Positions 8,667-48,579 of a DNA stretch of 50,131 nt are shown here, in pieces. Origin of the DNA: Fragilaria crotonensis (lineage: Eukaryota > Bacillariophyta > Fragilariophyceae > Fragilariales > Fragilariaceae). Location of the stretch: positions 1 to 50,131 of the forward strand of contig JAKSYS010000470.1 in NCBI GenBank assembly GCA_022925895.1, written 5' to 3'. The translations under genes and the position numbers were made by a program. Position 1 is the stretch's first letter, and the number at the start of each line of letters is the position of its first letter. The notes beneath the pieces are model-generated. The model saw nothing but the letters and a program-made list of their open reading frames with translations. It ran no database searches and had not been told where the DNA came from.

Positions 8667-8681
8667 AGGCGTCGGCCATCG

Positions 8682-22842: not shown

Positions 22843-22860
22843 CATGGTGGCAGAGAACAC

Positions 22861-29175: not shown

Positions 29176-29674
29176 CTAAGTCCGTTTAGTCGGATGAGTC
29201 GTCTGCGCTGAGTTTCCGTTATGTCGTCGTTTCGTCCACTGTGTACTGACGTCCTGTCTTTTCTGTCGATGTTTGCGTGTCAAAAGCTTATCGGGTTGGA
29301 TGCGCAGAAGTGGGATGTTGCCGTAGATCATCACGTCGATGTCTAGGTGGTGACTTATGACGCAACGTAGGATGTGGTGGATGTAGTGCTTGTCGAGGCC
29401 ACGGATGATGTTGAGTTCGGGTGGGTCGGCGAGTGTGTTGATGCAAGAGGCAGAGATAGTGGCACTCGTGCGAACGCAAAGCGGTAGGTCGCGAAGTTGA
29501 ATCGTGCCGTTGATTGTGTCCAGTAGCATTGCCTCGGTGAAAAATAGGTCGCGTGACGGATTGTGATGGAAGTCTTGGAACATCCGAAAAGGGTGGTGAT
29601 GAACGACGTTGAGAGGGTTGGGATATTGCAACGGTGGAGCAGGGTGCAGAGGAGGCACTAGTCTGACGCCGCAT
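29176..29674 (-). pseudogene. 3' half of an unrecognised gene split by the 29.7-33.9 kb transposon
   Basis: A coding-like minus-strand frame of about 165 residues runs from the transposon edge to the stop at 29176. It includes PPLHPAPPLQYPNPLNVV, a folded-looking middle (FFTEAMLLDTINGTIQLRDL, then LDKHYIHHILRC) and a basic tail (RKHRQKRQDVSTQWTKRRHN). It has no proper start of its own. Its frame joins exactly with the minus-strand frame that ends at 33907 if the transposon and one AT are removed, so I regard both as parts of one gene. I do not recognise the product. Confidence 0.6.
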
Positions 29675-29684
29675 CACAAGGTGG
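29675..29684 (+). repeat. Left terminal inverted repeat of element 1
   Basis: CACAAGGTGG, preceded by CCGCAT. The inverted copy lies at 33897-33906. Including flanks, the 16-mer CCGCATCACAAGGTGG is shared between both ends. Confidence 0.75.
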
Positions 29685-30291
29685 TATATGGTGACTTTTA
29701 AAAAATAAAATGGATTCAATACATATGGTTAGTGGACGGGGATTAATGAATATAAAATATTTAGCACTAACATTTTAAAGTTATATTTCACAGTTTAGTA
29801 TCATACTACACCTTTAAGCAAATACTCAACAAACATCAAAACAAAAAACAAAATAAAACAAGATTTGTCGATTGCAATTACAATTTTCTTTGTGTTTTAA
29901 ACTTTTAAATTGGTTTACATGGCTTTTTTTGGTTTCAAGCAACGTTATACAGTAAATTTGAATCACAATGTAAATTGAATGAATCAATTTAAATGGGTAT
30001 CTGTCACCATATTACAGTCATTTATAACAATAAAAGATAAATGCTATAACTTTATCTGATGAAATGAAATTCTTTAAATTGAGCAGAGTCGTTGTTAAAC
30101 GTTTCTTACTAGCTTGAAATATTGATTGCTTGACAACAATATGTTTATAGTTTAAGTTTCTATGTTTAACAATGACGCTGCATGTCAACATCTCCACATT
30201 CAAAAGTGGAGTTATTACTCCTCGATGCGGTTTCGTTTCAGAATGTTATGGTGATGATCATAATAATTGTGCACCTCAATAAATTGCGTTG

Positions 30292-31690
30292 TTATTCCAA
30301 ATCCCAACATGCTTCCACTGGTTCTAATGCTTCTGCCTGCTCTCCATCGGAGGTGTCTCGACTTCCTTCACCATTTGTTCCTCTCCTTTTCAGTGCAATG
30401 CAGTGATTGAGCAGTTCACGCTCCATATCCATGGCTTGTTCACACGTGCGATCAGCCTTCACCAAGTGATAGAATTCGTTGTACCTTGCCATTCCTTCGC
30501 GGCTCCATCCACCATACTTGCAGTGGCCTGTTTTTTGCGCAGTATACTTGCCTTTCTCCCTTTCCCTCTTGGACTTTTCCCTGCTGCCGGCGCCGCTCCT
30601 TGGTTGTGGTTCTGCTGGTGGGGTCTCGTGCCGCAGTTGTTCCTCTCGCTGAAATGCCTTGAGCCACTTCTCAATATAGTTGTCGTAGAGAAGGAGAGCG
30701 AAAGCCTCGTCGCTGATGGTCACCAACTTGCCGTGTTTTGTGGCCGAGCTCGTCGCCTGCGACACCAATTGCTTACTCTTTTGTACACCCCAGTGCTTCA
30801 GGCCACAAACGCACTCAAGAAATGTTCCATAGAACCAGAGGAATGCTTTTTTCTCCCTTTCCGTACTTGCTCTCCTCATTTTTGTAATTCATCAATTGAG
30901 AACATCCATTCTATCTTCCTTGAATTGTTTTAGTTCTCTCATCATGATGTTCTTCCCCGCCTGCTCGCATGTGCTCCTCTTGCTGTTCAACGCATGGTTA
31001 AAAACACTTTCATATAACATCTGGAATTTCACACGATCTCGGTTTGCCACACACTCGTGGTCCATCACCTCCTTGAAAGCCTTACCAAACATGTGTTCAT
31101 TGCTGATAAACTTGACGACTCGAAACATATGTTTTCTGACGTAAGTTGTGACCCTATCTGCAATGTTCTCCTGGTGTTTTCCGACATGGACGATTCTTTT
31201 GCTGACATACCTCTTACTCGTATCAACCCTTCAAATTCTGCGCAGCTCCTGCTGGCGATGTTCTTCCACGTTTTGCAGGAACAACATAGTCGTCATCATC
31301 ATCGTCATCATCGGACGAATGTAATTCCTCGGCACCCCGGCAGGGAAGCATTTTGTCCAACTCCTATCCACTCTCGTTCTTGGTCACTATTTTCTTCTCC
31401 GTCACTTGTGTTATATGTGTGGTCCGGGCTACTAGACCGTGCCGTAGCCTCCTCGTTGTCATGGTCCTCTTCTTCGATATGTTCTCTTTGCCGCTTTCCT
31501 CCTTTTGACGATTCGGCAATTTCGTCTTCGCCACTGCCGCTGTCTTCATCCTCATATAAAGATTCGAGTCTGATTTGTCAGATACAGTTCCGTTGTTCAT
31601 GGCTTCAGTTACTCTGTTGTAGTAGTATACAATTGTGGGAACAAGTTTCATCGCTTGCGGCACACAAGAAAAGTTTTGAGCGCGAAGCAC
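30292..31690 (-). pseudogene. Broken YGGWS-family protein of element 1
   Basis: Homologous over most of its length to the intact protein at 37225-38922. Shared landmarks in order: ADRVTTYVRKHMFRVVKFI (ADRIQIVVKTKVFRKCKFI in the paralogue), NSKRSTCEQAG (NTKRSTCGQAA), KKAFLWFYGTFLECV (REAFLWFAGELLECV), ISDEAFALLLYDNYIEKW, then GKYTAQKTGHCKYGGWSREG. Two adjacent in-frame TGA codons (about 30886-30891) fall between MDVLN and ITKMRRAS, where the paralogue reads without interruption. A further break near 31240 separates the conserved part from an acidic N-terminal segment and from the 31690-31364 frame. Function unknown; likely an accessory protein of this transposon family. Confidence 0.65.
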
Positions 31691-32779
31691 TTTTGTTCAC
31701 AACTCCCATTTAAATTTGAAGAGTTGGGCACACATGTTGTTTGTATGCTTGACACAGAGTCAATTTGAATGGGTGTGTCGACAGAAATTATTACTAAAGG
31801 CACTGTACAATTGTTTGTGGCAAGCTACCGTTGTAAATAAATATTGCTGTGTCGGGGATTGAAGGCTTACTAGTTATATTCCTGCAATATATCATGATGT
31901 GTATACGTTTATATGGCAATATTTTGCCGCTAATCGTTTTTGTAACCGCCACAATTACTTCGTGGGAATACTCCGATGTTTGCGCATCATGTACACTCAC
32001 TCGGTACGATGAAGATGCGCATGTGCTTGGTATATATGATTTGTTACTAAGTGCTGCGAGTTTTTTTAGGTGCTGCGATGCGTCAGTTCTCAGTACTAAG
32101 GTAAATTACCATTATCATCTTAAGTACTGGCTGGCTGGTGATGCATTCGACTTGGAATTTCTGTATGTGACAAGAATGTGTGCCTGAATACACATAAGGA
32201 TTTAGCACATCTATGGCTACGTTAGTTAGGGTCTTGTTGCCATGGCAAAATGAAGAAGATGAAAAATAAATGACTAACACATGTTTATTTGTTTTTGTAC
32301 TTAGACAGTTTTGAGGGGAAGGAAATTTTGGCCTGAAGTCCCATGGGCAACGCGTGCCTTGCGTAGTATTGGTTATACTGGAATCGACGTGAAATGCACT
32401 ATTTTGCACGAGTTGCTTTCACAACAATTTATGGACATCCACACTGCTGTTGCACTCTTTGTGCCCAGCACATACGTATACCACATTCATGCTTGTTGTC
32501 GTCTGAAGAGGAGAACTGCTTGCTTTTCTGGCGTGTTGGAACTCTGGTACAATTGCCTTCTCCCCAGACAGGGATTTGCAAATCTGTCCTTTGTGACGAC
32601 GTGTTGCCTTATCACTCAACGTGAAGAGGGGGAATTGCTTGTTTTTCTGGCGCGTGCGAACTCAGGATTGGTTGTTCCCCCCAGACAGGGGTGAACAACT
32701 TGTCGTTAGTGATCGCGTTGCCGCCTTATCGTCGGTATCATCATGTTTGCAGATCCTTCACGAGATCGCGCCAGGATAG
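31691..32779. other. Non-coding interior of element 1 with a diverged tandem duplication
   Basis: No convincing gene. A unit of about 118 bp starting GAAGAGG occurs at 32505 and again at 32623 (both with TGCTT..TTTTCTGGCG and CCCCAGACAGGG), clearly related but diverged. Confidence 0.5.
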
Positions 32780-33394
32780 CTAGCGCGCGGCGTACGCTTC
32801 CGGCGCAGAGCTCTGTTTCAGCCATGGGACGCAATCCGCGTGCGGTTGGGGTTGGTGCTGCAGGCCATGACATTGCTGGCAGTTCTCTGCCTTTAGATCG
32901 GACTGCTGGAGGAGTTCCTCGTACAATTCAAGGACTCCTTCGTCAGGGTCTGTCGCTCCGTTCTCAACCAAATCAGGTGGCGTCGTCAACGACTCTTCCT
33001 CACCAAAAGGATTGACGTCATCGTCGTCGTCCAATTCATGCTCATCGGGGTCATCGTCACCATCTAGTGCTTCAACAGAAGCAGCACGACCAGCATCCTG
33101 AACAGAACTGAATTCGAATGGTGCAGAAAATCGTTGACGACTGTGACCCTCCTGGTGTCCAGTAGTTACTTGTCCTGTGAGGATATGTGAGGACAACGAA
33201 GCGTGGTTTTGCGCGGCCTTGGCAGCACTCCGGTTAATCAAAGTACCACCAATACCAGCAGACGGATCAATTGTGCTCTTCCGAGAAGCATAAATGCTGT
33301 TGCAAACAAGATTGTGATTCAGGTGTACCTGGATTCGCTTGAAGGGTTTGTGACATCCGTCGCACAACGTAGTAGAGGATGTGCGTTTCGGCAT
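32780..33394 (-). CDS. Zinc-finger ORF, probable N-terminal remnant of a transposase
   Basis: A 204-residue frame starting MPKRTSSTTLCDGCHKPFKR. The start carries a C-x2-C-x9-H-x2-H-x3-C cluster (residues about 11-31), followed by a Ser/Ala-rich stretch and a strongly acidic linker (GDDDPDEHELDDDDD near residue 120). The same layout, Cys-Cys-His-His-Cys finger then acidic linker, opens the transposase at 45763-42436 in the sister element. The downstream catalytic part is missing; the frame ends in ...APEAYAAR. It could be a truncated transposase that still binds the ends, or a relic. Confidence 0.5.
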   Translation of the reverse strand: MPKRTSSTTLCDGCHKPFKRIQVHLNHNLVCNSIYASRKSTIDPSAGIGGTLINRSAAKAAQNHASLSSHILTGQVTTGHQEGHSRQRFSAPFEFSSVQDAGRAASVEALDGDDDPDEHELDDDDDVNPFGEEESLTTPPDLVENGATDPDEGVLELYEELLQQSDLKAENCQQCHGLQHQPQPHADCVPWLKQSSAPEAYAAR

Positions 33395-33896
33395 GTGAAT
33401 CCTTGTAAAGAGAGAAGCAATGCACAGAATTGTCGAAGATTCAACAATGAACTCAAAAGGTCACTGGACCTGTTGAACAACAGCCATTAAATGCCAGAAA
33501 TACGGTAAAAGTTTTAGACAACGCCATTCACTGTGCCTCGGAAACCTAACTGGCGAGTATGCCTCAATATCAGTGAATTTAGAAAACACCAAGTCAAATT
33601 TTTGAAAAAATGGTTGCAGCAGTGAAAATCAATTCGTTATATCCATCACTTTGTTGATTCAATCAGAAATATAGTTATAGTTTATATTTTTTTGTTGATA
33701 TCAAACCATATAGATTGATTATAATTCGAGAATTCACTGATAAAATTTGATAATTAATATATTTTAGTATTATATCATTATAACATGTAGAAAGAAACCA
33801 ACTATATACAACTATTGACTATTTAAGTCTAAAAGTAACCACTTCAGTAAACATAAACTGTCATTAATGACTACATGTATATCAACTCACAAAAAC

Positions 33897-33906
33897 CCAC
33901 CTTGTG
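33897..33906 (-). repeat. Right terminal inverted repeat of element 1
   Basis: CCACCTTGTG, the reverse complement of the left end, followed by the AT duplication. The gene to its right reads through into this terminus and stops a few codons inside (...ASQGGFL). Confidence 0.75.
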
Positions 33907-34650
33907 ATGCGGGTTGTTGTAAAGCTGTGCTTGGTACCTCATTAGGTTCACCAATATCTTGGTTAGCGTCGCCATTATTGTCAAGATCATCCTCAACAAT
34001 GTCCATTGGTTTGGGATCAGGGTTGTTTGCAACTTCTGGTAACGGATCTGGGTCGGCATCAGGATAAAAGTTAACAGTTTCCCTAGTGGAGTCATTATTA
34101 CTGCAAGAGTAACAATGATTGTCAACAAAATCATCAACATCAGCATCAGCTGGGGAGCTTGGCAAATCTTCCACCTTGATTGGGACAGGGTGCTGAACAT
34201 CCAAATAGGTTAAACTCTCAGAGGAAATGGTCGGATTGTGGGCTCTGCAGGCCCATTGTTGTGGATTGGGGGAGGAAACCGCGGTACGAATGACAGTAGC
34301 TGCATTTCCCGTGTCAACGGCAGCGCAGTACAAGGGCGATGCGTCAGAACCGATAAAGGGACGTTTCGCAAAATCAGGAATCTCCAAAATGACGTCAGGA
34401 ATCGGGCTTGACGTGGAAAATTTGCAAACAGAATCGAGGGTTGTTGAGTTGTTGTCGGAATTTGGATTGGGATGGGACTCCCCAAAGGAACAGGGACTGT
34501 ACTGGGGAAAGTACCAGGGTAGTTAGGAGACGTAGGCGGGGTGGCCTTGGGAGTTTTGGGGGAATCCGGAATGTTTGGTTCAATCGTGGAAAAATCAGTA
34601 CAAAAATTCTGAGTACCGGATCCGTTGTCACTGTTCTCATCATGCGTCAT
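33907..34650 (-). pseudogene. 5' half of an unrecognised gene split by element 1
   Basis: Starts MTHDENSDNGSGTQNFC at 34650 and reads Pro/Ser/Thr-rich sequence to PTSPNYPG near 34535. There coding character moves to another frame (FPQYSPCSFGESHPNPNS) and continues to the transposon edge through DFAKRPFIGSDASPLYC and an acidic segment (NNPDPKPMDIVEDDLDN) to STALQQPA. The frame then enters the transposon terminus. The downstream half lies at 29674-29176 in the matching frame. The product is probably a largely disordered nuclear-type protein; no domain recognised. Confidence 0.55.
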
Positions 34651-34932
34651 AGTTTTTCGTCGCGCGTCCGCTGAATTGCTGGAGGTTCCGGAATTTCGGC
34701 TCTTTTATGTGTCTCGTACCTTTTACGCAGATTATCTACCAGAAATTTGTTCGACAAACATCTAAATAATTCCTCGTTTCCAAAATGATAGAATATCTTC
34801 TGTTGATACACTATAATTAAAACCGTGCTTTATTTTGGAACTGTTTTTTAAATCGTTTGTTATGACAAGTACGACATCGATTCAATGTCTTGGATGAACT
34901 AGTACTATGTAGGGATATTTAAAAAAGGCGTT

Positions 34933-35049
34933 GGCTCTTGAGCCACTGGCTCTTGAGCCACTGGCTCTTGAGCCATTGGCTCTTGAGCCCCTGGCTCTTG
35001 AGCCATTGGCTCTTAAGCCACTGGCTCTTAAGCCACTGGCTCAAGAGCC
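34933..35049. repeat. 15-bp palindromic minisatellite, eight units
   Basis: Units of GGCTCTTGAGCC plus a 3-nt spacer (ACT, ATT or CCT). GGCTC and GAGCC are reverse complements, so each unit is a small hairpin. Units 6 and 7 read CTTAAG in the centre, and unit 8 is the exact reverse complement of the consensus (GGCTCAAGAGCC). Confidence 0.95.
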
Positions 35050-35190
35050 AATTTACCTCGTCCAACTAGTCGAGGAACGTGTTTTCTTTAAATGAGAACT
35101 CGCCACACGGGGAACGGAAAAAAATGACAGGTCATCTAAGGTCGATGGTATGCGTATGCGTTACGTCTCCATTGATACATATGTATTTCG

Positions 35191-35327
35191 GCACATACTA
35201 CATTTTCTGTAAGCATCGGCGAAACAATATACAGGTATGAAGAGAATACATTCATACATATAGGCACATAGAACATTTTCTGTAAGCATCGGCGAAACAA
35301 TACTCAGGTATGAGGAGAATACATTCA
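35191..35327 (+). repeat. 73-bp tandem duplication
   Basis: Two copies of a unit starting GCACATA and containing ATTTTCTGTAAGCATCGGCG and GAGAATACATTCA, at 35191 and 35264, with a few mismatches. Confidence 0.9.
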
Positions 35328-35444
35328 GCGAATGACAAGGAGTGGTATGACATAAAGTGCGAGCACTTTTGAGGACGAGCTCTATGACACAGACAAAACG
35401 TGTGTTCTTGAGTTTGACTTCGCCGGGGGCTGTTGTTCAGCCGT

Positions 35445-35504
35445 TGGCTCTTGAGACAACGGCTCTTGAGCCAATGGCTCTTGAGCCAGCGGCTCTTGAG
35501 ACAA
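35445..35504. repeat. Second cluster of the 15-bp palindromic minisatellite
   Basis: Four units, GGCTCTTGAGCC or GGCTCTTGAGAC, with spacers AAC, AAT and AGC, about 400 bp from the first cluster. The period of 15 keeps a reading frame (minus strand: repeating QEPLA/QEPLS). Confidence 0.9.
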
Positions 35505-36037
35505 CGGCTGCCGACACCTCAAATGTCGAATATCCTTAAGTAGGATTTTCATAAAACGTCGATTCCGTTGTCGCATAGTCTAATCTCAAGTTCTTTAGTT
35601 GAAGCTCAAAATTTGTCACGTCATGAGATTGATGTACCTAATGATCCGGACATTTGAAGTGATGGAACGTGGAATATTTGTCGGGCGTGACGAACAAAGT
35701 TGTAGAATTAGTATCCGTAGCCAGTAGTATACACTTATAGGTAAAAGAGCCGAAATTCCGGAACCTCCTGGTGTCCATCAAAATGCCCGAATTACTCCCA
35801 GAACTTTGAACAGTCATTTCTCGAGATCTATCGCTTCGATTTTGCTCAGATTTGGGGAGGGCACTAAAAAGGTTGTACTGTGGCGCCTGGCATCGCGTGG
35901 TATGGCGTGCAAGTGCGTGCGCGATCATGGTGAGTGTGTTTTGAAGAGACATCAATTGCTCGTTTCCAATGGCTCTGATGACCTTGTCAACGTCGTCTTG
36001 GATCTCCCCCAGGGTATAAGAGGCTTTAATTGGTTCC

Positions 36038-36720
<683 letters not shown>

Positions 36721-36722
36721 AT

Positions 36723-36732
36723 CACAAGGTGG
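36723..36732 (+). repeat. Left terminal inverted repeat of element 2
   Basis: CACAAGGTGG, the same 10-mer as the left end of element 1, preceded by GTGCAT. Confidence 0.75.
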
Positions 36733-36768
36733 CGGGTGGTACATGTAACATATTTGTTACATAGACTG

Positions 36769-36983
36769 TTTTTTTTTGAGTCCGGTACAGTTCGAAATAT
36801 CTTATTACAATGTACCATATTGATTTTCCTGTTTATTTTTTTGTGCATGTACCAATATTTTTTGAGTCCAGTACATCGTCCCGACGTGCATGTTACATGT
36901 AAAATTTTTTTTATTGTACCATTGCCTGCTTACTGTCCGTAATTTGTTTGTCTTTGTACAATGTTTTTTTTTAGTCCAGTACA
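36769..36983 (+). repeat. Left subterminal repeats of element 2
   Basis: T-rich tract plus GAGTCCGGTACAG near 36777-36790, GAGTCCAGTACATC near 36864-36878 and TAGTCCAGTACAG near 36971-36983, spaced about 90-105 bp, with ATGTACCAT/ATGTACCAA words in between. Subterminal repeats of this kind are transposase binding sites in CACTA elements. Confidence 0.6.
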
Positions 36984-37224
36984 GCGTTGTAACATTCATT
37001 CTACACCAATCACCTTTTTGTCACTGCACCACGCATGCTTTGGATGTCCATTCTTTGTTACAATGTATCATCTTGTCACAGTACCATTCCTGTATAATAA
37101 TACTGCTTTTCATAGTACTGGGTCGCTGCGTTCAATTGTTGCTAGTTACAACTCAATAAATGCATTGACTACTTGTTCATTCCGGTCCAAACTCCTTTGC
37201 GAATCACTGTAATCCACCTCCCTC

Positions 37225-38922
37225 TCATTGCTCCTCCACTCCCTGTCCTGCTTGTTGCCGAAGACTTGCCATTAGCCTACCCTCAGCCTCCCTTGCATTT
37301 CGACTGGCCCTGTCCTCTTGCACCATTTGGCACAATTCATTGAATCGCAGCACACCGTCCTCGCTCCAGCCTCCATATTCACAGTACCCAACGCTACTTC
37401 TTGTGTACCTCCCAGCAATCCGTTTTGACCTCTCTTCTCCCCTTCGATCCTCGTGGTACCTCTTGATCCACTTGTCAATATAATTTTCATATAGAAGCAA
37501 CGCAAATGCTTCGTCCGAAACCGTCACAATCAGTTCTCCGGTATCGTTTGATGTTGCTTCTGATATCATTGCCTTATACTTTGTCCTCGCCCCCCATGCC
37601 CTCTTTCCACTGACACATTCCAGCAATTCACCAGCAAACCACAGAAAGGCCTCTCTCTCCAGATCAGACTGTGACTGCCGTAGCTTGCAAAGGATATCCA
37701 TTGAATAGGGCGGTGGCTCCACTTCATCAACATGGTTTTTAATCTTCAGCAGTTTCATCACTGCTTCAGTAGCAGCTTGCCCACATGTGCTACGTTTAGT
37801 ATTCAGGCTTCCAACGACACATGTTTTGTAGATCCTCACAAATTTGGAAGCATCAGCTGGTTTCTCCGAATCCACAACCACCTGCATTACCTTGTCGAAG
37901 TGTTCCCCGCTTGTAATGAACTTGCATTTCCGGAAGACTTTCGTTTTCACCACAATCTGTATGCGATCGGCAACATGTTTCTGCTGCATTGCTTTTGCGG
38001 CTCTGTAGGACATGGCTCGTCTTCCGGCTTCATGTAGTAGTGTCCGATCTCCTGCCCTGTACCTGATATCTTGTCCAACACCTTCGTGATGTTCCCAAAT
38101 GGACTCCTGCTGGTTCTGCACGTGGTGTCTCTGGTGCATTTCCTGATTCATTGGAGGTTGCTGCTGTCGAGAGACCAACAAGTCATCATTGAAGTCGTTT
38201 CCTCTGGATGGAGGCAATCGTCCATTCTGACGAACATGGTTGTCTGACTGTGTGCTTGTCCAATGATTGAGTGGAGCTTGTGTCCTGTTCTGGTCACGTG
38301 CAGTTTGGATGGGTCTGTCTCCGAATGGAGGTCTGCCTCCGGTAGATGGCGGCCTGCCACCGACTTGCATATTTGCAGTACTGTTGCTTCCACCCTGCAG
38401 CATATTCCCATTGTTCAGGTGATATGAAGTGTCACCTGGAATGTCTCTGGATGGAGGCATGCCGTCGACTTGCACATCACCAGAAAAATGGGGTCCTCCC
38501 TCCTGTTGCTGGCGATCCCGCTCATGGTGACCTTCTCCTACTGCATGAGAGTCATCCTCACTACTAGAGCAGTTATCTTGTGAAAGGGTGTCTAGTTCCT
38601 CCAATACAGACTTAGATGGTGAGCTTCCTCTACTCTCGTTGCCATTTGCGTTCAAATGCCGTTCCAAATTTTGATTCAAGTTGCGCAGACTCCTCCTCTG
38701 CTGTACTCTCCTTCCCTGCACATCTTTTGACCTACCTCCTGATTCTGGGTCTATGTTTTCATCATTCCAAACCCTCTTTGGCGGCATTCCTGTTCGTCTT
38801 AATTGCTTGTTTCCTCTTACCTGGTCGTACAATGTTTCAGACAATGTGTTGGAGTTTGTGTTTCTTTTCATGTTTTGTGCGCTCCTTTTGTTGGGCGGAT
38901 GCGAGGACAACCGGTCGTACAT
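37225..38922 (-). CDS. YGGWS-family protein, accessory gene of element 2
   Basis: An uninterrupted 565-residue frame starting MYDRLSSHPPNKRS. Residues 1-270 are low complexity, with Gln, Arg, Asn and Gly-rich runs and repeated RPPS/MPPSRD peptides. The C-terminal half is conserved with the broken copy in element 1: KHVADRIQIVVKTKVFRKCK (about 320), NTKRSTCGQAA, LEREAFLWFAGELLECV, VSDEAFALLLYENYIDKWIK, and GRYTRSSVGYCEYGGWSEDG near the end. The pattern of conserved aromatic and charged residues suggests a folded domain. I know no named family for it. Its repeated pairing with a transposase-type zinc-finger gene suggests a TnpA-like DNA-binding or regulatory role, which is inference only. Confidence 0.7.
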   Translation of the reverse strand: MYDRLSSHPPNKRSAQNMKRNTNSNTLSETLYDQVRGNKQLRRTGMPPKRVWNDENIDPESGGRSKDVQGRRVQQRRSLRNLNQNLERHLNANGNESRGSSPSKSVLEELDTLSQDNCSSSEDDSHAVGEGHHERDRQQQEGGPHFSGDVQVDGMPPSRDIPGDTSYHLNNGNMLQGGSNSTANMQVGGRPPSTGGRPPFGDRPIQTARDQNRTQAPLNHWTSTQSDNHVRQNGRLPPSRGNDFNDDLLVSRQQQPPMNQEMHQRHHVQNQQESIWEHHEGVGQDIRYRAGDRTLLHEAGRRAMSYRAAKAMQQKHVADRIQIVVKTKVFRKCKFITSGEHFDKVMQVVVDSEKPADASKFVRIYKTCVVGSLNTKRSTCGQAATEAVMKLLKIKNHVDEVEPPPYSMDILCKLRQSQSDLEREAFLWFAGELLECVSGKRAWGARTKYKAMISEATSNDTGELIVTVSDEAFALLLYENYIDKWIKRYHEDRRGEERSKRIAGRYTRSSVGYCEYGGWSEDGVLRFNELCQMVQEDRASRNAREAEGRLMASLRQQAGQGVEEQ

Positions 38923-39000
38923 TTGATTTCAAATCACCGTACTAGTACTCCTTGTACATGCTGTATGTACAGCTATATTTACTACGTTTATGTTCTATTG
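38889..39000 (-). repeat. Start region of the YGGWS gene, duplicated at 39736-39855
   Basis: TTGGGCGGATGCGAGGACAA and the following roughly 100 bp recur at 39736 with small differences. The block includes the first 12 or so codons of the YGGWS gene and its upstream DNA. Shorter related pieces link 38991-39045 with 39604-39660, and 39670-39728 with 39844-39900. Confidence 0.85.
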
Positions 39001-39443
39001 TATACATGGTCACGCTATACATATGTCCACGTACGCATTGCGTTTATGTAGAACCTATTTTCGGCAACTTTGGTGTTTTCTTGCACCAGTGCAACTACTT
39101 CTGGCGTGCTTTTTGCACCCGCAACGCTAAAAGCCAAAATATTGCAATTTCCTCACACAGTATCATTCTACTGCGTCAAAGTGGATGTCATCGCATGTCG
39201 TCATCGGACGAAACGAAGATGTGAAGTTTGCGTGCCATACCAGGTACTACGAAACGCATCAAGTACAAGTACAGCAATGATTGCTTCACAAGAACAACTT
39301 TGATTGGAAAATTCATACTGTTGCACTCCGTTAAATTCCTACTGTTCATACTACAGTACAAGTAACCTGATTCGAATGGTTCGACAATGCATTCGGATGA
39401 TTCGATTACATTACTCCTTTGAGTCGAGCAAGTCAAAAACAGG

Positions 39444-39593
39444 CACGCTATTCATTCTATTTTCATTCTTTTCACCATTGATATAGCGTGTCAAGAATGA
39501 AATAGCGTGACCAAAATGTCAAAAGGCCCAACCGGTGGTATAATTTTTGGACATTTTCGTCACGCTATTAGACCATTTTTGCAAAATAGCGTG
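39444..39593. repeat. Palindromic MITE-like insertion with CACGCTATT ends
   Basis: Five copies of ATAGCGTG/CACGCTAT in both orientations (39444, 39483, 39502, 39560, 39586). The inner pair 39501-39520 and 39550-39569 forms a 20-bp inverted repeat with one mismatch. The outermost copies (CACGCTATT at 39444 and AATAGCGTG ending 39593) could be the termini of a 150-bp element. No coding potential. Confidence 0.65.
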
Positions 39594-40559
39594 ACGGGTG
39601 GGGATGCTCTTATGTTCTATTTTAGACATGGTGTATACATATGTCTCCACGTACGCATTGCTATGTTACTGTATGTAGTACGTTTAGTACCACGCATGGT
39701 ATTTGAATTTTGTTTGTACCAGCATGACGTTTTCGTTGGGCGGATGCGAGGACAACCGGTCGTACATTTGATTTCAAATCACCGTATGCATACTATTACT
39801 CCCTGTACATGCTGTATGTACAGCTATATTTTCCTACGTTTGTGTTCTATTACGTTTAGTACCTCGCATGGTATTTGAATTTTGTTTGTACCAGCATGAT
39901 GTAGATGTCTGTGCTGGGTACTTTGAGGCATAGTACCTGAATTCAATTCTACACCGGTTTGCAACGCATTTTCTCAATGCAAAGATATATAGTCACGTAT
40001 GTAGTATTTCGAACGAAATTTTGCGTGCATATGCGCATATGCTCCCACTATGAGCAAGTTGTAGTATGCATATCTTTGATACTTAGCACAGGTTGATACG
40101 TACTACGTATCAATCGTCTGCAACATGTCAGTGCCCGACGGTTATGATAGTCGTTTTGCACGTATTGCCAGTGTAAGCTACAGTTATCAAATGGTTTCCA
40201 AGTTTCAACTTATTCCCTATGTAACTAAGTTTCTTCATACATGGCATATATCTAGATACCTTCTTTGCATGTATGCGTGTACATGGCAAATTCCTATGTA
40301 ACTAAGTTTCTACATATATGGCATATATGTAGATACCTTCTTTGTATGTATGCTTGTACAGCGCAAATTTGTGGTTTTTAAGCGGCAAAATGAAGTCCCA
40401 CATTGCAGTCTTGTTGTTTGTGCAACATATGTTGCTTGAACTAGCCTGTACGTAGTCCTCTAGTACTTTTTCACCGCTCTGCTTTTTAGTTTCTTTCCGC
40501 AATTTGTAGCAATTAACACACGTTCACAGGTTTGACGAATACGATCTTTGTTGCCATCC
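39594..40559. other. AT-rich interior of element 2 with a 77-bp tandem duplication
   Basis: No gene seen. A unit beginning CCTATGTAACTAAGTTTCT and containing GGCATATAT.TAGATACCTTC occurs at about 40216 and again at 40293, roughly 85-90 percent identical. Many ATGTA/TACAT words are present. Confidence 0.7.
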
Positions 40560-41710
40560 AGTAACAATCAAGATCAAATCGTCGCTTCCATCCAGTGACA
40601 CGGTGCTTAACGTTGCGAGAGGAATTGTCGTTCCGTCGCTTCGCTGACGCGGTGCCGCTTAACGTTGCGAAAGGAATCTTCGTCGCCCTTACCGACGTTG
40701 TACTTGAGGTTTCAAAGTGATCGTCGCTGCCATCCAGTGACGCGTTCGCATCGCTGCAAAGAAACAACGTCGCGAAGAAACGAATCGTCGTTGCCATCCA
40801 GTGACGCTCGATTGTGTGTTGACGCCGCAGTTCTTGACGTTGCGAAGAGGATCGTCGTTGCAATCCAGTGACGCGGTGCTTGACGTTGCGAAGAATTGTC
40901 ATCGCCATCGCTTTGACGTTGCGAAGAAACGAATCGTCGTTGCCATCCAGTGACGCTCGATTGTTTGTTGACGCCGCGGTACTTGACGTTGCGAAGAGAA
41001 TCGTCGTTGCCATCCAGTGACGCGGTGCTTGACGTTGCGAAGAGAATTGTCGTCGCCATCGCTTTGACGTCGCGAAGAAACGAATCGTCGTTGCCATCCA
41101 GTGACGCTCGATTGTTTGTTGACGCCGCGGTACTTGACGTTGCGAAAGGATCGTCGTTGCCATCCAGTGACGCGGTGTTTGACGTTGCGAAGAGAATTGT
41201 CATCGCCATCGCTTTGACGTTGCGAAGAAACGAATCGTCGTTGCCATCCAGTGACGCTCGATTGTTTGTTGACGCCGCGGTACTTGACGTTGCGAAGAGA
41301 ATCGTCGTTGCCATCCAGTGACGCGGTGCTTGACGTTGCGAAGAGAATTGTCGTCGCCATCGCTTTGACGTTGCGAAGAAACGAATCGTCGTTGCCATCC
41401 AGTGACGCTCGATTGTTTGTTGACGCCGCGGTACTTGACGTTGCGAAAGGATCGTCGTTGCCATCCAGTGACGCGGTGCTTGACGTTGCGAAGAGAATTG
41501 TTGTCGCCATCGCTTGACGTTGCGAGGAGAATCGTCGTTGCCATCCAGTGACGCGGAGCTTGACGTTGCGAAGAGAATTGTCGCCATTGCTTGACGTTGC
41601 GAAGAAACGAATCGTCGTTGCCATCCAGTGACGCTCGATTGTTTGTTGACGCCGCGGTACCTGACGTTGCGAAGAGGATCGTCGTTGCCATCCAGTGACG
41701 CGGTGCTTGT
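40560..41710. repeat. Higher-order minisatellite, about 150-bp unit of three 50-bp monomers
   Basis: Each monomer combines GTCGTTGCCATCCAGTGACG with a variable part and GACGTTGCGAAGA. The long-range unit, marked by GCGAAGAAACGAATCGTCG, starts at 40772, 40921, 41072, 41222, 41373 and 41599 (spacings 149, 151, 150, 151, 226). The left edge (40560-40770) is more diverged. Long minus-strand frames through it are a by-product of the near-multiple-of-3 period and change frame at small indels. I do not regard them as a proven gene. Confidence 0.95.
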
Positions 41711-41732
41711 TGTTCTTACAATTATGTCTACT

Positions 41733-42560
41733 TCACCATTTGGGAGACGCTCTTGCAATCATACTCGGGAATGTGGCTCCTCTCTTGTGAGAACCGCAAA
41801 CGCAAGGCGGACTCTGATGTCTTGGATGTTCAGGATCTCGCCTCGCCGGTACGTCGTGTGTTGGTGGCTTCCCATGTGGTTGGGGGCCGAACGTTTCCTG
41901 GAGCTTTCGCGTTATATCATTGCGGGTACAAAAATCCACGTGTCTTTTGCGGTCTTTCGTCTGGAGATGAGTCGCATTTTCGGATCCCGCGCGCCGCAGA
42001 CATTCTGCCCTAGTCAAGTGCAGGCTGCGGCGGTGTTGTCGAAATGCATTCCACGTCATCTGTCGGAGTCTTTCACCAAGCGCTTTCTCCATCATCAGGG
42101 ATTGCCCACAGCCGGTTCAAAGTGGGTGCATGATGCCATCCTGCCTGGAGCACAGGTTTGCAAAACCTTCGTTTCCAGTATTCACGAAGCACTAGTGGAT
42201 ACCTTTGGTGTTGGTAATGTTTCCGTGGAACAGTGCCAATTCATGAAGTGTGATCGCGACAAGACGTGTGGTGTGGCTGTTCCTCACGTTCTTGAGATCA
42301 TTGTTCTCGATGCTGTCTTGGCGCGTTCCAAGAAAGTTCCAAGGCCATTGTCTTCCACCCGCGCTACGGTTGATACTCCTGTCAAGATGCGTATTGATGA
42401 CATTTCCCTGAAGGAGCCCTGTCACGACCACCGTTTCAGGGCGTTGGTCGCTGTGCTTCCGGAGGCGGGTGTGTTTTACTGCCACCGGGAGAGGAGGAAG
42501 GTGTTTTACTGCCACCGGGAGAGGAGGCACTTTCGTCGGATTCGGGTTTCTCACGAGTGA
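41733..42560 (+). pseudogene. Broken plus-strand ORF between the minisatellite and the transposase
   Basis: Coding-like sequence starts in one frame (about 41753-42010: ENRKRKADSDVLDVQDLASP, then GAFALYHCGYKNPRVFCGLS) and continues in another from about 42012 (SQVQAAAVLSKCIPRHLSES, QCQFMKCDRDKTCGVAVPHV, LEIIVLDAVLARSKKVPRPL). It is antisense to the transposase end and terminates in the short 30-bp repeat there. Unrecognised; perhaps a captured gene fragment or a second transposon gene in opposite orientation. Confidence 0.4.
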
Positions 42561-45500
42561 TGACTACTTCTCTGTGCTTCTTGTGAATGAAGGAGTCCCA
42601 CGTTGTTGACCACTCAGATGGGGAGAGAATCATGAATAGGTACTTGATGTCGGGAAGACTTTGCGCATTGTTGTCGGGGGGCGAATCGCTGAATGTATCG
42701 GGAATGGCCACAGTAGGTCTCCATATTGCATTGACATGGACAAGGTAGAGGATTGGTTGGAGAGTTCCGGGGATTAATGAGAGCTTGAACTCTCGAAAGA
42801 TGGATCTGTCAACTTCCTCTTCCACATTGTTGTGGTCATTGACTTCTTCGACGTCAAGGTCTTCCACATCACTGCTGTCATCATCATTGTCAAGCACAAC
42901 CTCATTGTAAGACTCAATAACCGCATAAAAACCAGGCGTTTTGACGGCAACAGATTGTCCTGAGTGGGGAAACTGATACGGGAACCACTTTGTACATTGT
43001 GAAGGTTGAGAAGGTGTGAATTCAAGAAGGAAGAGATCATTGAATCCGGACCACTTGACCAAAGCATAGTCGAACCATGGTTTTGGTGATGATAGTTGGG
43101 ATGGGCACGATAGATCTGTCCATCAGCAGATTTGTATTCAGTGTGACAGTGAAGAATTGGCGTAGTCAAGTGAGGGAGGCAATACGATGCCAGGGTGTTG
43201 GTAACATGTGAATTCAGGTGGTACTCCTCAGGAATGGAGTCGTCAACTTTCTTCTTTGATGCAAAACGGCGGCACTTTACATTACCATGAGCATCCCTCT
43301 CCATGGAATACCTCTTGCCTTGCAAGCGATGAGTGGTGGGAGGCAAGTTGGTGCTTGAGAGGAATCGCTGACACTGGAAACAGACTTCCTAATTGCAAGG
43401 TTCTCAACATAACGCATAGCAGCCTGGACTGTAAATGTTTCTTGACGCTTTTGGGTATTCCGTGTGGTATCTTTGGAGATGGTGATGTGAGCAGACTCTG
43501 CATAGGAACTATTCATAACCTCGGGGACACCAAAATTGAGGATGTCGTCTGCAATATGCAACACAAGATGTGTTTTGATTGTTGCATTGCCCATGGCACC
43601 GGCAAGTCTGGGGGCAACAAACTTCAGGGTTCGCATCAGCGACGATGTTGCATAGCCAGATCTCAATGCGGATAGACGTGGGATATGAGGTTGCTTCAGC
43701 CAGGCGTGCCATTCAAGCAAAGAACTGAGTAAAAAGCTTCCAGTCGTTGACAAAATCAGGGTTGCTCAGGTTCATGTCAACATCGGGCTGATGAGACGAT
43801 GCCTTTTTTGATTGAAATATTTCTGAGAATTGAGTGGTGTACAATGAAATCAGCATGATGAACAGGCATCCCGCATATTCATGTCCAGGAATGTTAGCGG
43901 TGGAGGAAAAACCCTTTGTGACATTTGTCTTGGGAATCTGACGATCACTTTGCCGGCGTACTTGCTGGTTGATGTCCAATAACAGATTATTATACCTCCT
44001 TGCAAATTCGGATGTCTTTCCAATTTGCTTAAAGAACGAGTCAAGAACATTTTTGAACCAGCCTAAAAGAACCAAGTGAAGGATCTCGCCAGGGCAGGCA
44101 CCAAAAATGCCGCGATCGTTGTGGGCGCCAAATCGGACAGAATCGAATGCATTGATCAGAAACTGTTGAGAATTGGACTTCAACAAGTCAAACTGTCGCT
44201 TGGGGTGACCATTTCATTGACGGACTTGGGTGTGCGTTTTGGATAGGCACGTGCCTTGGAATAACCTGATTTCCCAGTTGGACACTCGCAAGCACGACAT
44301 AGCTGTGCAACACCTGCTGTGCGAGATCGGTAATGACCACAGAGAGTGTCATGTCCCTCAGTGTCTCCAACAATGAATGGAACGTAAGGGTGCAAGACAA
44401 CAGGGAAAGATTTACCGCGATAACAAAGGTTCCATTTCATACCTGTTTCTTGGAGTTGAAGATATCCTGACTCACGAAGAATGAAGTCAATTTGAAGGTG
44501 ATATTCATTTACGCGGTAGCAAGCATCAGAAACAAGTGAAGATGATACAATTGGGAGTGGCGTATTGGCTTTTGGAACACCAGGAGAGGAATCACGTTCC
44601 TTCACAGGAGTTGTGTTGATGAAACCCAACACCCTCATTGCGGCGGGTGTCTTGCGAATGTCATGCTTCATCAGTCCATAGGAAAGAACAATGGGTTCCA
44701 AACTCAACCTACCACCGCCACCAATGTCGCATGTTGTCTTATCAATTGCAAGTATGCATGGAAGTAACATATCCTCAGGATTCTTGATAAGCTTGTCGTA
44801 GGTTTTCAGGTAGGACATGCCAGTATTGATATCACCCAAAACTGACCCGGACGGTTTTGCAAATGGGTCAAGGTGGTGATTGTTGGGGTCGTGAAATATA
44901 TAGTTCTCGTCCTGGTTAAGGTCCGGACAAGAAAGAAGAGAACTGAATACGGCATGGGCACTAAAATAAACAACCTCAATGTGGCAGTTTGAATAAGGGA
45001 GGTAGAGCTCTTTCACGATGGGAGTCAAAGAATCGAGGCCAACACGTCCACGCAGCTTGTCCATAACCGTCTTTCGTGAAGTGATCGGCATGTCGCGAAA
45101 AATGTGTCCTTCTGAGCAGGATCTAACAGCCCACTTCATAACCTCGTCATAAGCAATCATTGGAGCTTTGAGTCTCTTCAGGGTCTGAAGGAGATCAATC
45201 TGAACCTTTTCTTCAACAGAAAACAACGACAGTTCAAGGCCATCATCGTGATCATTTGACCATGGATCCTTGAATGTATCAGAAAAAGAAGGGGCATCGC
45301 CAATCTCAGCAGCAGACATAGGGACACTGCTGTTGGGATGGTTGGATGCAAAGGTGGTGGAGTCCTCAGCGATGGATAGTAAAGGGTCATTTTCATCAAC
45401 ATCAGCAAATGACGAGGTACCAACAAAATCATCCTCAACGTGCAAGGGTAGTAAAGATATGTGATCGTTGTTTGCATGGGCACCAGTAACAGATGACAAG

Positions 45501-45763
45501 GCAGCATGAAAGCTCGCATTGGTTTGTTGGTGATGAAGGGGTGGTGCGTCCATTATGCCACCATGAATGGAAGGATCTTTTGAGTAATCCAAGGAACACT
45601 GAGGATGCGTTGAGAGATGACGGGACAGACCCATTGGGCCAGCAACAACAAATCGACCACATGAAATACATTGGTCTTTCTCTGGGGATAACATGAGGAC
45701 TTTCTTGGCATTTCTCCTGCGTGAATTTTCGATCCGACGTGAAAGCCTGGCCTGGAGGCTCAT
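42436..45763 (-). pseudogene. CACTA/Plavaka-like transposase, frameshifted
   Basis: The probable start is the Met of MSLQARLSRRIENSRR at 45763; the open frame extends further up to 45907 but with a hydrophobic leader unlikely to be real. Domains in order: zinc finger CISCGRF...RHLSTHPQC (about residues 30-55); acidic linker; LKRLKAPMIAYDEVMKWAV near 45170; central catalytic region with ILAIDKTTCDIGGGGRLSLE near 44740; cysteine motif QLCRACECPTGKSGY near 44280; FDSVRFGAHNDRGIFGACPG near 44130; ADDILNFGVPEVMNSSYAES near 43540; acidic C-terminal domain. Frame changes occur near 44208, 43715, 43350 and 43085. The order and motifs match fungal Plavaka-type transposases. About 1,100 residues if intact. 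The shifts could partly be introns, but no good splice signals were evident. Confidence 0.7.
42470..42529 (-). repeat. 30-bp tandem repeat in the transposase C terminus
   Basis: Two copies of GTGTTTTACTGCCACCGGGA plus GAGGAGG; on the minus strand they encode the repeated SSPGGSKTP peptide near the end of the transposase. Confidence 0.85.
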
Positions 45764-46099
45764 GGTGGTGGCATCCAAATGAACAACAGACAAGGACGAG
45801 CGACTTAAACAGAAAACCCTTGCATGTAGGTTGAGAATGACACAAATGAAGTGGTACACCGATACCAAGAAAGTTGCGAATACAAAAAAAGAAACAGAAC
45901 ACTTCATACATAGAGGTGTTCACTATATGCATGGATATGTTTGAAATACAAAATTGGCGTACCATAGGTGGTACACTTATTTTGAATGGTTTTGGTTGAA
46001 AATTCCATATTAATGTAAAATACATAAAGGTACAAATTGTAAAAAGTTTGGACATAATTTGTAAAATAATGTACTATGTAGGAGTCCATGTAAAAGCCG

Positions 46100-46109
46100 C
46101 CGCCTTGTG
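46100..46109 (-). repeat. Right terminal inverted repeat of element 2
   Basis: CCGCCTTGTG; reads CACAAGGCGG on the minus strand, one mismatch from the left end. The next bases inside (GCTTTTACATGGACTCC) share the GAGTCCA..GTA-type word found in the left subterminal repeats. Confidence 0.75.
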
Positions 46110-46111
46110 AT

Positions 46112-46936
46112 GTGGCTTGCATCTTTGCAGCCATCTTGGTTGGAGTGGTAGCCCTGTGGCTAATGTGGGTGCCCTGATGGAATGGAGCTGCAATCTTGTT
46201 GTTGCGCTCATGGAGGTGGAGGTTGCAATCCTCCTGGATGATCTGGTCAAAATTGTCGTCGGAATTGGTGGCATGATAGGCGGCTTGGGGACCTTTCTTG
46301 ATGGAGGTGCGCCTCTTCTTCTTGGTTGGTTGATCCTGATCGTCATCAGGGGTAGTGTTGGGAGAAGGAAAACGGTGGACACGGCGATGCTTGGATCCTC
46401 TGGGAGATCCGAAAGCTAAGGCTCCATGATAGAGGCCAGGATAAGTGGGCGTGTCGGGAGGGACAGGATTTGCGCCGATTGGGGCGCAAACGTCGACGTT
46501 ATCGTCGAAGGCATCGAGGTCTTCGGCCTTACGGGCGGACCTAGTGATGCGAGGGGCAAGGGTGGGGGGGGGCGTTCTTCATGGTGGACTTGGGGAAGCT
46601 TCTGTTCTTCAATGGGGAGTTTAAATTCGCTGCTGGCAAGTCCAAAAGGAGAGGGAAATTAATAGCAGTTAAACTCAAATTGTTAACGGCCGTAGGAAGG
46701 CTCGCCCAATGATTGTGCATGTCGGGCTAGTAATTTCTCTCGACGGTAGAGCCTTGGACCGGTGGTTTGAGGCGAGCAACCATGACAGTGTTCGTGTGAT
46801 CGGTACACAAGTACTGGCCAACGGTAGACTTAAGGTTAGTACGACATAGAAGTCTAGCGTCGGACTTCACGGGTGAGCAAGCGAACCTGACGGATCGTCC
46901 AGCTTTGGGCAATGGTGTTTTGTAGACATACACCAT
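46112..46936 (-). pseudogene. 5' half of the poly-Asn gene split by element 2
   Basis: Opens MVYVYKTPLPKAGRSVRF at 46936 and reads to VARLKPPVQGSTVERNY, where a TAG (46727-46729) interrupts. The same frame continues (LLLDLPAANLNSPLKNRSFP, STMKNAPPP) to a run of nine C at about 46562-46570, where coding moves one frame (LAPRITRSARKAEDLDAFDD) and runs on through VPPDTPTYPGLYHGALAF, a basic KKKRRTS motif resembling a nuclear localisation signal, and KMAAKMQAT at the transposon edge. The continuation is at 36720-36038. Unknown function; probably a disordered nuclear protein or itself a gene of an older repeat. Confidence 0.5.
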
Positions 46937-47729: not shown

Positions 47730-48579
47730 ATGTCCGAAGAAGAGCACGATTACAACATTGAGAACGCCGATGCCGGCGCCTCTGCTACCATTCCCATGGA
47801 AGCCGGGCAGATCAAGAAGGGAGGGTAGGTGACATGATGATACGTCCGCAACGAGCATTTTCCATTTCCCCTGGAAGGCACTGGTTTTCACGTACCGTCG
47901 TACTATGGCTACGGAAGACTGCCTACAATACCGCGTGCGAGTACTGTTGTTGAGCAACAACTGATAAATATTTGCTATCCATCAGTCACCAACTAAAACT
48001 GACTTGAGTGTAATGTTGGGAGTCCTGTGATCACTCCCCTCTAATGTCCTGTTGGGCTTGTCGAAGCAACGGTCAAAGGAACATGAACTCTTGCCTCATT
48101 CCTTCCTGTGCTTGTCCGAACCACAACCTCATAACATTGGATTCACGTATGTTGGCACTCAAACTCACTCCTTATCGTGCCTCTGCTTCTTCAGATTCAT
48201 GATGATCAAGGGAAAGCCATGCAAGGTTTTGAGCATTTCCGTCTCCAAGACTGGAAAGCACGGCCACGCCAAGTGTAACTTCACCGCCGTCGACATTTTC
48301 ACCGGAAAGAAGTTGGAAGATATGATTCCATCCACCCACGGAACCAGCGTTCCTATTGTCAACCGTACCGAATGGGAGATTATCGACATCGGGGAGGACG
48401 GAGAGCTCACCCTCATGGACGAAGGAGGCACCCAAAAGACCGACCTTAACCTCCCTGAAGTTCCCGAGGGACTTGCCCAAGAGATCAGGGACGCATGGAG
48501 CGACGGAGAGAACACTGTCAAGGTTGCGGTTCAGGCTGCCGTCGGAATCGAGCAGGTTATCTCCTTCAAGAAGGAGTAG
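47730..48579 (+). CDS. EIF5A: Translation factor eIF5A, two exons
   Basis: Exon 1 is 47730-47824 (MSEEEHDYNIENAD... to KKGG), intron 47825-48194 (370 bp, GTAGGT...TTCAG), exon 2 48195-48579 (FMMIKGKPCKVLSISV onward), stop TAG. The joined protein is 159 residues, normal for the family. The hypusine loop SKTGKHGHAK is intact; the modified lysine by homology is Lys53. The N-terminal SH3-like barrel and C-terminal OB fold (IDIGEDGELTLMDEGG) are both present. eIF5A binds the ribosome E-site, relieving stalls at proline-rich and other hard peptide bonds and aiding termination. The intron position within the GG before the conserved MIKG segment is supported by exact codon completion. It is convergent with panB, about 275 bp apart. 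Confidence 0.97.

Follow-up and report, generated by a model that had tools for sequence, protein, structure and literature searches.

PlavakaB-like transposons in the diatom Fragilaria crotonensis and YGGWS, a second protein found with their transposase

In a 50,131-nucleotide stretch of the Fragilaria crotonensis genome (contig JAKSYS010000470.1; hereafter the window), the 10-mer CACAAGGYGG occurs at exactly four sites, 29675 (+), 33906 (-), 36723 (+) and 46109 (-), as a preliminary description had reported. The sites form two head-to-head pairs. Inside each pair the minus strand carries first a zinc-finger protein or transposase and then a member of an unnamed family with the motif YGGWS, an order confirmed in both elements. 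This arrangement raises the question of what kind of transposons the two elements, E1 and E2, represent, and whether YGGWS is a part of them. Both are best read as members of a large PlavakaB-like group in this diatom genome. PlavakaB (CMCT clade) was described in fungi (Kojima, 2025; PMC12730594).

Element ends and target-site duplications

Shuffled versions of the window contain the 10-mer 0.22 times on average, and none of 100 shuffles reaches four. The 7-mer CACAAGG by itself occurs in the window about as often as chance predicts (8 found, 7.67 expected), and the 10-mer itself is barely enriched genome-wide (299 sites vs 261 for the reversed control). The 13-mer CATCACAAGGYGG, which adds the preceding CAT, is highly specific, with 68 sites in the genome and none among controls. 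Two further terminal inverted repeats (TIRs) also exceed their controls, CATCAGAAGGTG (193 sites vs 7 controls) and, in a minor set with CATCG ends, CATCGGAAGGTKG (17 sites vs 3), so the search for further copies with such ends, proposed earlier, returned many. The true TIR is 5'-CATCACAAGG, placing the element ends 3 bp outside the CAC termini first proposed, and the end consensus of the group is CATC[AG][CG]AAGG.

E1 (29672..33909, minus strand; 4,238 bp) has CATCACAAGGTGG at both ends and a CG target-site duplication (TSD) at 29670..29671 and 33910..33911. E2 (36720..46112, minus strand; 9,393 bp) is bounded by CATCACAAGGTGG and CATCACAAGGCGG, with TG at 36718..36719 and 46113..46114. Both duplications, CG/CG and TG/TG, are given as read on the plus strand.

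Since AT precedes CACAAGG at all four window sites, it had been noted as flanking the ends, and a duplicated AT next to CACTA-style termini with CAC as their first bases would account for it. The AT is indeed there; because the TIR begins 3 bp further out, it is part of the TIR. Neighbouring TIRs less than 25 kb apart are convergent in 52 cases, divergent in 4 and on the same strand in 1 (among the matches listed). An exact 2-bp TSD lies outside CAT in 47 of 52 elements, in 11 different sequences, against a mean of 7.4 and a maximum of 17 when partners were shuffled 10,000 times; a 3-bp TSD is found in 0 of 52. AT at the scanned ends is uninformative on duplication, as the scanned patterns contain CAT. 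Given the varied duplications beyond CAT, a duplicated AT is very improbable. When the element and one TSD copy are removed, open frames of 363-364 aa (E1) and 354 aa (E2) span the join. When excisions were placed at random, 28 of 2,000 gave frames of 354 aa or more, and joins at shifted positions yielded 225-349 aa too; these frames are weak support for the boundaries.

The transposase and the origin of E1

The E2 transposase gene (42436..45907, minus strand) is spread over several frames (44180-45907, 43713-44213, 43277-43765, 42774-43388 and 42436-43122). The Pfam Plavaka family (PF18759) matches the frame 44180-45907 at E 8e-7, and the E2 transposase scores 29 and 30.5 bits against a curated cut-off of 26.3. 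The same family matches 12 of 13 members of transposase set A2 (E up to 0.01) and is found in 0 of 14 control genomes. PDB sequence searches returned two weak matches each, at E 0.18 or worse, and the transposase alignment has no relatives among viral contigs. Compared by tblastn with the open frame of a relative on contig C1, the E2 transposase aligns in five collinear pieces, 41-79% identical, and is interrupted relative to it. The 5' parts of five further copies align with E2, and small indels occur in the transposase region among the six copies.

Visual inspection of the E2 frames shows all five parts of a D-D-CxxC-HxxxH-E signature. For the open relative on C1, a pattern search finds both D residues, CxxC and HxxxH, and the E was recognised by eye, its YAESGH falling outside the strict pattern [YF]AE.[AT]H. 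Applied to nine ORFs, of which some are truncated at locus ends, a strict scan detected D1 in 7, D2 in 7, CxxC in 8, HLVLHI in 4 and [YF]AE.[AT]H in 4; the complete set occurred in none, and the proposition that all of these transposases show all five motifs was rejected.

Taken together, the CATCA..TGATG ends, the 2-bp duplications, the Pfam Plavaka transposase and the signature match PlavakaB, which shares these termini, transposase and signature as well as possible accessory genes, and has duplications of 2 or 3 bp where those here are 2 bp (PMC12730594). The present elements differ from it in their diatom host and in the minor set ending in CATCG. PlavakaA has 5'-TGT..ACA-3' termini instead of CATC ends, and neither the CACTA termini nor the 3-bp duplication of CACTA/EnSpm sensu stricto is met here.

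E1 is a non-autonomous element that arose from a 9.3-kb full-length element by internal deletion. Its sequence matches both outer parts of C279:3634-12956 at 97.4-97.7% identity and lacks about 5.1 kb from between them. The approximate junction (32896..32920) is visible against locus L069: near E1 position 991-1002 the match jumps from 635-1635 to 6720-9957. A 12-bp microhomology at the deletion was considered and rejected, the stretches being only imperfectly alike.

The E1 zinc-finger protein (P0003; 32780..33394, minus strand) had been taken for a gene of its own, and E1 and E2 for independent elements sharing one two-gene module. A 204-aa open frame carrying a C2H2-like motif does exist, as would be expected if E1 were a distinct transposon of two genes, one of them for a zinc-finger protein of its own. 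Nine other places, however, have transposase N-termini that match residues 1-166 (1-164 in one place) at 94-98%, and the remaining 38 aa match DNA in 8 places at 90-100%, lying 5.0-5.1 kb further downstream in 6 of them and 11.8 kb in 2 (C22 and C40). That search found no other place with an unbroken high-identity match to residues 1-204, and E1 is collinear with C279 apart from the one deletion. A separate transposon is thus extremely unlikely, and the protein is best read as a truncated transposase, in which about 166 N-terminal residues run into 38 aa of apparently non-coding DNA. The tail is apparently no transposase C-terminus, since its matching DNA in C279 lies beyond the last transposase frame.

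YGGWS and its association with the transposase

In E2, YGGWS is encoded by one open frame of 565 aa (37225..38922, minus strand), which has 87 matches in the genome. The E1 gene (30292..31705, minus strand; upstream limit approximate) is split over frames at 30292-30888, 30892-31230 and 31308-31696. Its C-terminal 195 aa are identical to C279:11755-12339, and the C279 relative is a single 469-aa frame. YGGWS has no Pfam match at E values of 1 or below, no credible Pfam or PDB relative and no recognised DNA-binding or enzymatic domain. Its alignment has no relatives among viral contigs, nor was any found in a collection of genome contigs. Two AlphaFold models have pLDDT values of 47.7 and 47.0 and give no usable fold. 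The protein is mildly basic; its last 270 aa are conserved and its long N-terminal part looks little ordered by eye. In four comparisons between two subfamilies, YGGWS has a dN/dS of 0.12-0.14 and the transposase one of 0.09-0.11; in the other 16 listed pairs, many with frameshifted copies, YGGWS values are 0.43-1.04.

The preliminary description had placed YGGWS in a CACTA/Plavaka-like lineage as its second protein, and had proposed examining where its homologues lie. Two single-protein queries found most of them with Plavaka transposases: at 84 of the 127 YGGWS places among the matches listed, a same-strand transposase lies no more than 15 kb upstream, and 2 places show other arrangements. 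Random placement would put about 1.4% of the places in the upstream arrangement, vs 66% observed. The 52 TIR pairs enclose both genes in 31 cases, YGGWS only in 3, transposase only in 0 and neither in 18; YGGWS therefore lies inside every one of the 31 pairs that enclose a transposase, a partnership in which these elements differ from PlavakaB. Downstream of a second Plavaka clade (36 places) YGGWS never occurs.

The remaining 43 of the 127 places listed, with no same-strand upstream transposase within 15 kb, are what would be expected if YGGWS were a repeat common in diatoms, or a family of host genes near transposons, and the association only a by-product. Yet a scanned TIR lies at most 2.5 kb downstream of 8 of these 43, where about 0.6% would be expected (for the 21 on contigs C1-C317, a scanned TIR lies downstream of 7 and not of 14). 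With the excess over random placement and the enclosure of YGGWS by 34 of 52 TIR pairs, a by-product is highly unlikely, and the reading of YGGWS as an ordinary host gene was rejected.

The two genes also diverge in step. A Mantel test on a first set of 18 elements gave r 0.70 (0 of 9,999 permutations); this set included YGGWS copies with frameshifts, and since the stretches out of frame make distances too large, the test was repeated with cleaner elements. The correlation rose to r 0.976 for 10 elements (0 of 9,999 permutations) and was 0.964 for 8, in sets of mutually related elements picked as clean after the first result, both of which include C153 with its two stops. Judged by position and co-divergence, YGGWS is a regular partner of this Plavaka transposase, encoded by the element and co-inherited with it, which bears out the proposed lineage.

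Possible role of YGGWS

The best explanation of the whole, to which we give somewhat better than an even chance, is a PlavakaB-like cut-and-paste group with YGGWS as a TnpA-like transposition factor. The transposase, some 1,100 aa long and carrying a DDE signature and, in its N-terminal part, a C2H2-like zinc finger, would recognise the CATC[AG][CG]AAGG ends, excise the element and insert it by a 2-bp staggered cut. YGGWS would most likely be a co-factor of the TnpA type that works at the ends of the element; it would bind subterminal DNA and help to assemble or regulate the transposition complex, like TnpA in maize En/Spm. E1 would be mobile only with both proteins supplied in trans.

The analogy draws on En/Spm (TnpD and TnpA), which is similar in its two-protein organisation, short TIRs, internal-deletion derivatives and possibly motif-rich subterminal regions. 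En/Spm requires both TnpA and TnpD, and TnpA recognises subterminal repeats (PMC2613891). TnpA is a product of alternative splicing of one transcription unit (PMC1636069), whereas YGGWS, known here from DNA alone, occupies an open frame that lies some kilobases 3' of the transposase. The same source describes SmTRC1/TRC elements (animal and fungal CACTA), which likewise have 2-bp direct repeats at their ends and a proposed TnpA-like second protein; they differ in animal-element TIRs starting CCC and in a Transposase_21 rather than a Plavaka domain (PMC1636069). EnSpm-Plavaka elements of the green alga Auxenochlorella are Plavaka-type DNA transposons in an alga, and the covered part of their description mentions no second protein (PMC12633428).

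Candidate binding sites may be provided by GTAC. The 3' subterminal region of E2 (36720..37224) holds 10 GTAC in 505 bp, or 19.8 per kb, a count reached by 0 of 300 shuffles, and the 5' region (45908..46112) holds 4 in 205 bp, reached by 1 of 300. Densities of 17.5-35 per kb occur at 9 of 11 3' ends tested, from four of five families, vs a background of 3.9 per kb at window positions 1-29000. In the fifth family, represented by C279 and E1, the ends contain no GTAC over 450, 617 and 620 bp. The motif is also enriched in the intergenic part of E2 (9.4 per kb), and in the rest of the window it exceeds shuffles (112 vs 70).

Some fungal PlavakaB elements carry an optional TET/JBP dioxygenase gene (PMC12730594), and YGGWS could by analogy be cargo against host silencing or for expression control, dispensable for the transposition chemistry. 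Its little-ordered N-terminal part and conserved C-terminal portion would suit such cargo, as would the 30 of 113 transposase places (among the matches listed) without YGGWS within 16 kb downstream, some of which contig ends may explain. This reading is unlikely, though of some weight: an optional passenger sits poorly with the 0 of 31 transposase-enclosing TIR pairs that lack YGGWS, with the parallel divergence of the two proteins and with the absence of any enzymatic domain recognised by Pfam.

Under the preferred reading of a TnpA-like factor, it may further be proposed, tentatively and at somewhat below even odds, that YGGWS founds a new protein family: an essential co-factor and TnpA analogue unrelated to named domains that co-evolves with the transposase and with subterminal sites specific to each family, and that sets a two-component diatom branch apart from fungal Plavaka. 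In the part of the literature covered, no description was found of this lineage in a diatom or of a YGGWS second protein. That literature describes Plavaka elements mainly from fungi, and here a diatom has them with complete ends, with duplications and with a gene that regularly accompanies the transposase. The lineage thereby gains a defined anatomy, its second protein becomes nameable and testable, and full-length elements together with short non-autonomous ones offer material for a two-component transposition assay. The short non-autonomous elements observed in the genome include six 1.33-kb copies.

Limits and copies of the elements

The preliminary description placed the 10-mer CACAAGGYGG as two facing pairs, and its four sites, the only ones in the whole window, do form two convergent pairs (0 of 100 shuffles attain four). 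Across the 62.1-Mb assembly of 881 contigs, which its silicon transporters (PF03842) mark as an apparent diatom with 19 matches (best E 4e-193; one of 14 control genomes matched, below the cut-off), the 10-mer alone is near chance (299 sites vs. 261 in reversed controls); once the preceding CAT is included, specificity is high (68 vs. 0 genome-wide). In relatives with both ends known, the terminal inverted repeat (TIR) starts with CATC (CATCACAAGG, CATCAGAAGG or CATCGGAAGG) and has outside it a 2-bp direct repeat whose sequence varies between elements. The AT flank suggested earlier is therefore not the target-site duplication (TSD), and the window's two transposons become E1 (29672-33909, TSD CG) and E2 (36720-46112, TSD TG).

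Genome-wide, the three TIR patterns occur at 68, 193 and 17 sites (0, 7 and 3 in reversed controls). Pairs were defined as neighbouring listed sites of the same pattern less than 25 kb apart, using the first 100 places of the 193-site pattern (up to contig C317). Further copies with such ends, as anticipated, are many: 52 convergent pairs among the matches listed, against four divergent and one same-strand, counts that include some insertions present on several contigs. Identical insertions with identical flanks are shared by C22/C40, C183/C265/C466 and C209/C111, which suggests that the assembly contains uncollapsed haplotypes.

TSDs were scored in 52 elements, comprising 50 of the 52 listed convergent pairs plus those on C832 and C466; C110 and C516, at contig edges, were omitted. 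An exact 2-bp TSD flanks 47 of these listed elements (shuffled-partner control: mean 7.4, maximum 17), and a 3-bp TSD none of the 52. The exceptions are on C138, C142, C109, C285 and C122; the two flanks at C142 are inverted copies of one another. Because some insertions are repeated in the sample (C22/C40 and C183/C265, detected by script; C466 with C183/C265, and C209/C111, by eye), the figure corresponds to about 43 of 48 distinct insertions.

Six TIR pairs of 1,334-1,341 bp with CATCACAAGG ends (C84:46739-48073, C195, C235, C252, C392 and C478) all carry a 2-bp duplication and, judged by length, likely represent one non-autonomous family. The C84 element resembles C279, which holds a full-length relative of E1, at its ends only (62 and 70 bp, 82-89%). 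A few TIR pairs of 16-23 kb may hold further insertions. CACAAGGTGG occurs in direct, not inverted, pairs about 2.28 kb apart on C3, C41, C134 and C165, probably a different repeat.

A Plavaka-type transposase and a deletion derivative

The first frame of E2 matches Pfam Plavaka, as do 12 of the 13 members of transposase set A2. Signature residues of CMCT, the clade including PlavakaB, are readable in E2 and in a relative on C1. Both window copies, E1 and E2, have a C2H2-like motif close to the transposase N-terminus. The E2 gene is spread over several frames, compared with an open frame on C1. Four copies of the 5′ part are 99.4-99.6% identical to E2 (C624: 83%, in a gappy alignment), and the aligned 5′ parts differ by many small indels, one E2 indel being in none of five other copies. 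On these alignments, E2 looks to have transposed recently and decayed afterwards.

Kojima (2025; PMC12730594) describes fungal PlavakaB elements with CATCA..TGATG ends, 2- or 3-bp duplications and, in some, TET/JBP genes; EnSpm-Plavaka elements from a green alga are mentioned in PMC12633428. No account of diatom Plavaka elements or a YGGWS partner was found in the literature covered, which lies largely outside subscription papers. The E1/E2 group is thus provisionally filed as PlavakaB-like, a class assigned from ends, duplications and transposase signature.

E1 had been proposed to carry the same two-gene module as E2, with a zinc-finger protein as its first member. Instead, it is 97.4-97.7% identical to the two outer parts of its full-length relative, C279:3634-12956, and lacks about 5.1 kb, and hence most of the transposase. 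Its "zinc-finger protein" consists of transposase residues 1-166 plus 38 residues from other DNA, which lies past the last transposase frame in C279. The deletion breakpoints fall within two short, imperfectly alike stretches, and YGGWS, the second protein, named for its motif, is a single 469-aa frame in C279 and broken up in E1. This anatomy resembles En/Spm deletion derivatives.

Association of YGGWS with the transposase

The minus-strand order described earlier, zinc-finger protein or transposase and then YGGWS, holds in the window. Merged searches yield at least 127 YGGWS and 113 transposase places, the latter wrongly including C154, which matches only the tail of P0003, the 204-aa E1 "zinc-finger" frame. 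Among the matches listed, YGGWS homologues do not sit mostly apart from transposases: 84 of 127 have a same-strand transposase upstream within 15 kb, two another arrangement and 41 no transposase within that distance (median separation 6.9 kb over all 86 linked places). Seen from the transposase side, 83 of the 113 listed places are followed by a same-strand YGGWS gene within 16 kb, leaving 30 that lack one. Both genes are enclosed in 31 of the 52 listed convergent pairs, YGGWS alone in three (E1, C85, C261), the transposase alone in none, and neither in 18 (1.3-6.7 kb), among which are the six pairs of 1.33-1.34 kb.

The PF18759 profile matches 80 places, 36 of which were assigned to a second Plavaka clade because none of them appears in the other lists and most align to a different portion of the profile (for example C872:110523-111251 and C140:31359-32087). 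Among the matches listed, none of these 36 has YGGWS downstream on the same strand, and three YGGWS places have a second-clade transposase at most 15 kb away in the opposite orientation.

Transposase and YGGWS protein distances correlate (r 0.976, n=10 elements). Of 20 pairs listed, the four between subfamilies C153/C832 and C466/C124 have dN/dS of 0.12-0.14 for YGGWS and 0.09-0.11 for the transposase. The remaining 16 range from 0.43 to 1.04 for YGGWS; 13 of them, inside the E2 family with its frameshifted copies, give 0.61-1.04. The C-terminal 270 residues are conserved between subfamilies (51-73% identity, 10 others vs. the window copy). Searches with YGGWS returned no credible Pfam family and no PDB relative. 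The protein is mildly basic (pI 8.9 in E2, 9.2 in C279), and its predicted structure is mostly helical, at a confidence too low for use.

PMC2613891 and PMC1636069 describe En/Spm as needing both TnpD and TnpA, the latter recognising subterminal repeats. Similarly, one element here encodes a DDE-signature protein and a co-inherited partner that has no recognised enzyme domain, a pair reminiscent of TnpD and TnpA. It is slightly more likely than not that YGGWS is a transposition co-factor; a cargo or anti-silencing role is less likely. Subterminal GTAC is supporting, not decisive, for the co-factor reading: in nine elements (E2 and eight others, four families) this palindrome reaches 17.5-35 per kb of 3′ subterminal DNA, compared with a background of 3.9 per kb (window positions 1-29000). 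GTAC is also enriched at the E2 5′ end and in its intergenic part (9.4 per kb); the C279 and E1 ends contain none.

Other features of the window

Between the transposase and YGGWS genes, E2 contains an array of tandem repeats, each about 150 bp long (40577-41731); a 321-aa open frame (41595-42560, +), also inside the element, runs opposite to the E2 genes. About 100 TTG triplets lie just beyond the E2 end (36270-36570). Between E1 and E2, a 1,088-bp stretch (34681-35768) is probably another non-autonomous element. Its two ends form a perfect inverted repeat of 27 bp (GGAGGTTCCGG..), it contains arrays of a 15-bp unit around GGCTCTTGAGCC, and its flanks have no clear duplication. Retroelement-like frames occupy 24285-25175 (+) and adjoining ORFs (20759-26814), one of which weakly matches reverse transcriptase (E 0.00099, under the curated cut-off). 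Ordinary host genes encode the translation factor eIF5A (48052-48579, +) and ketopantoate hydroxymethyltransferase (48856-50106, −).
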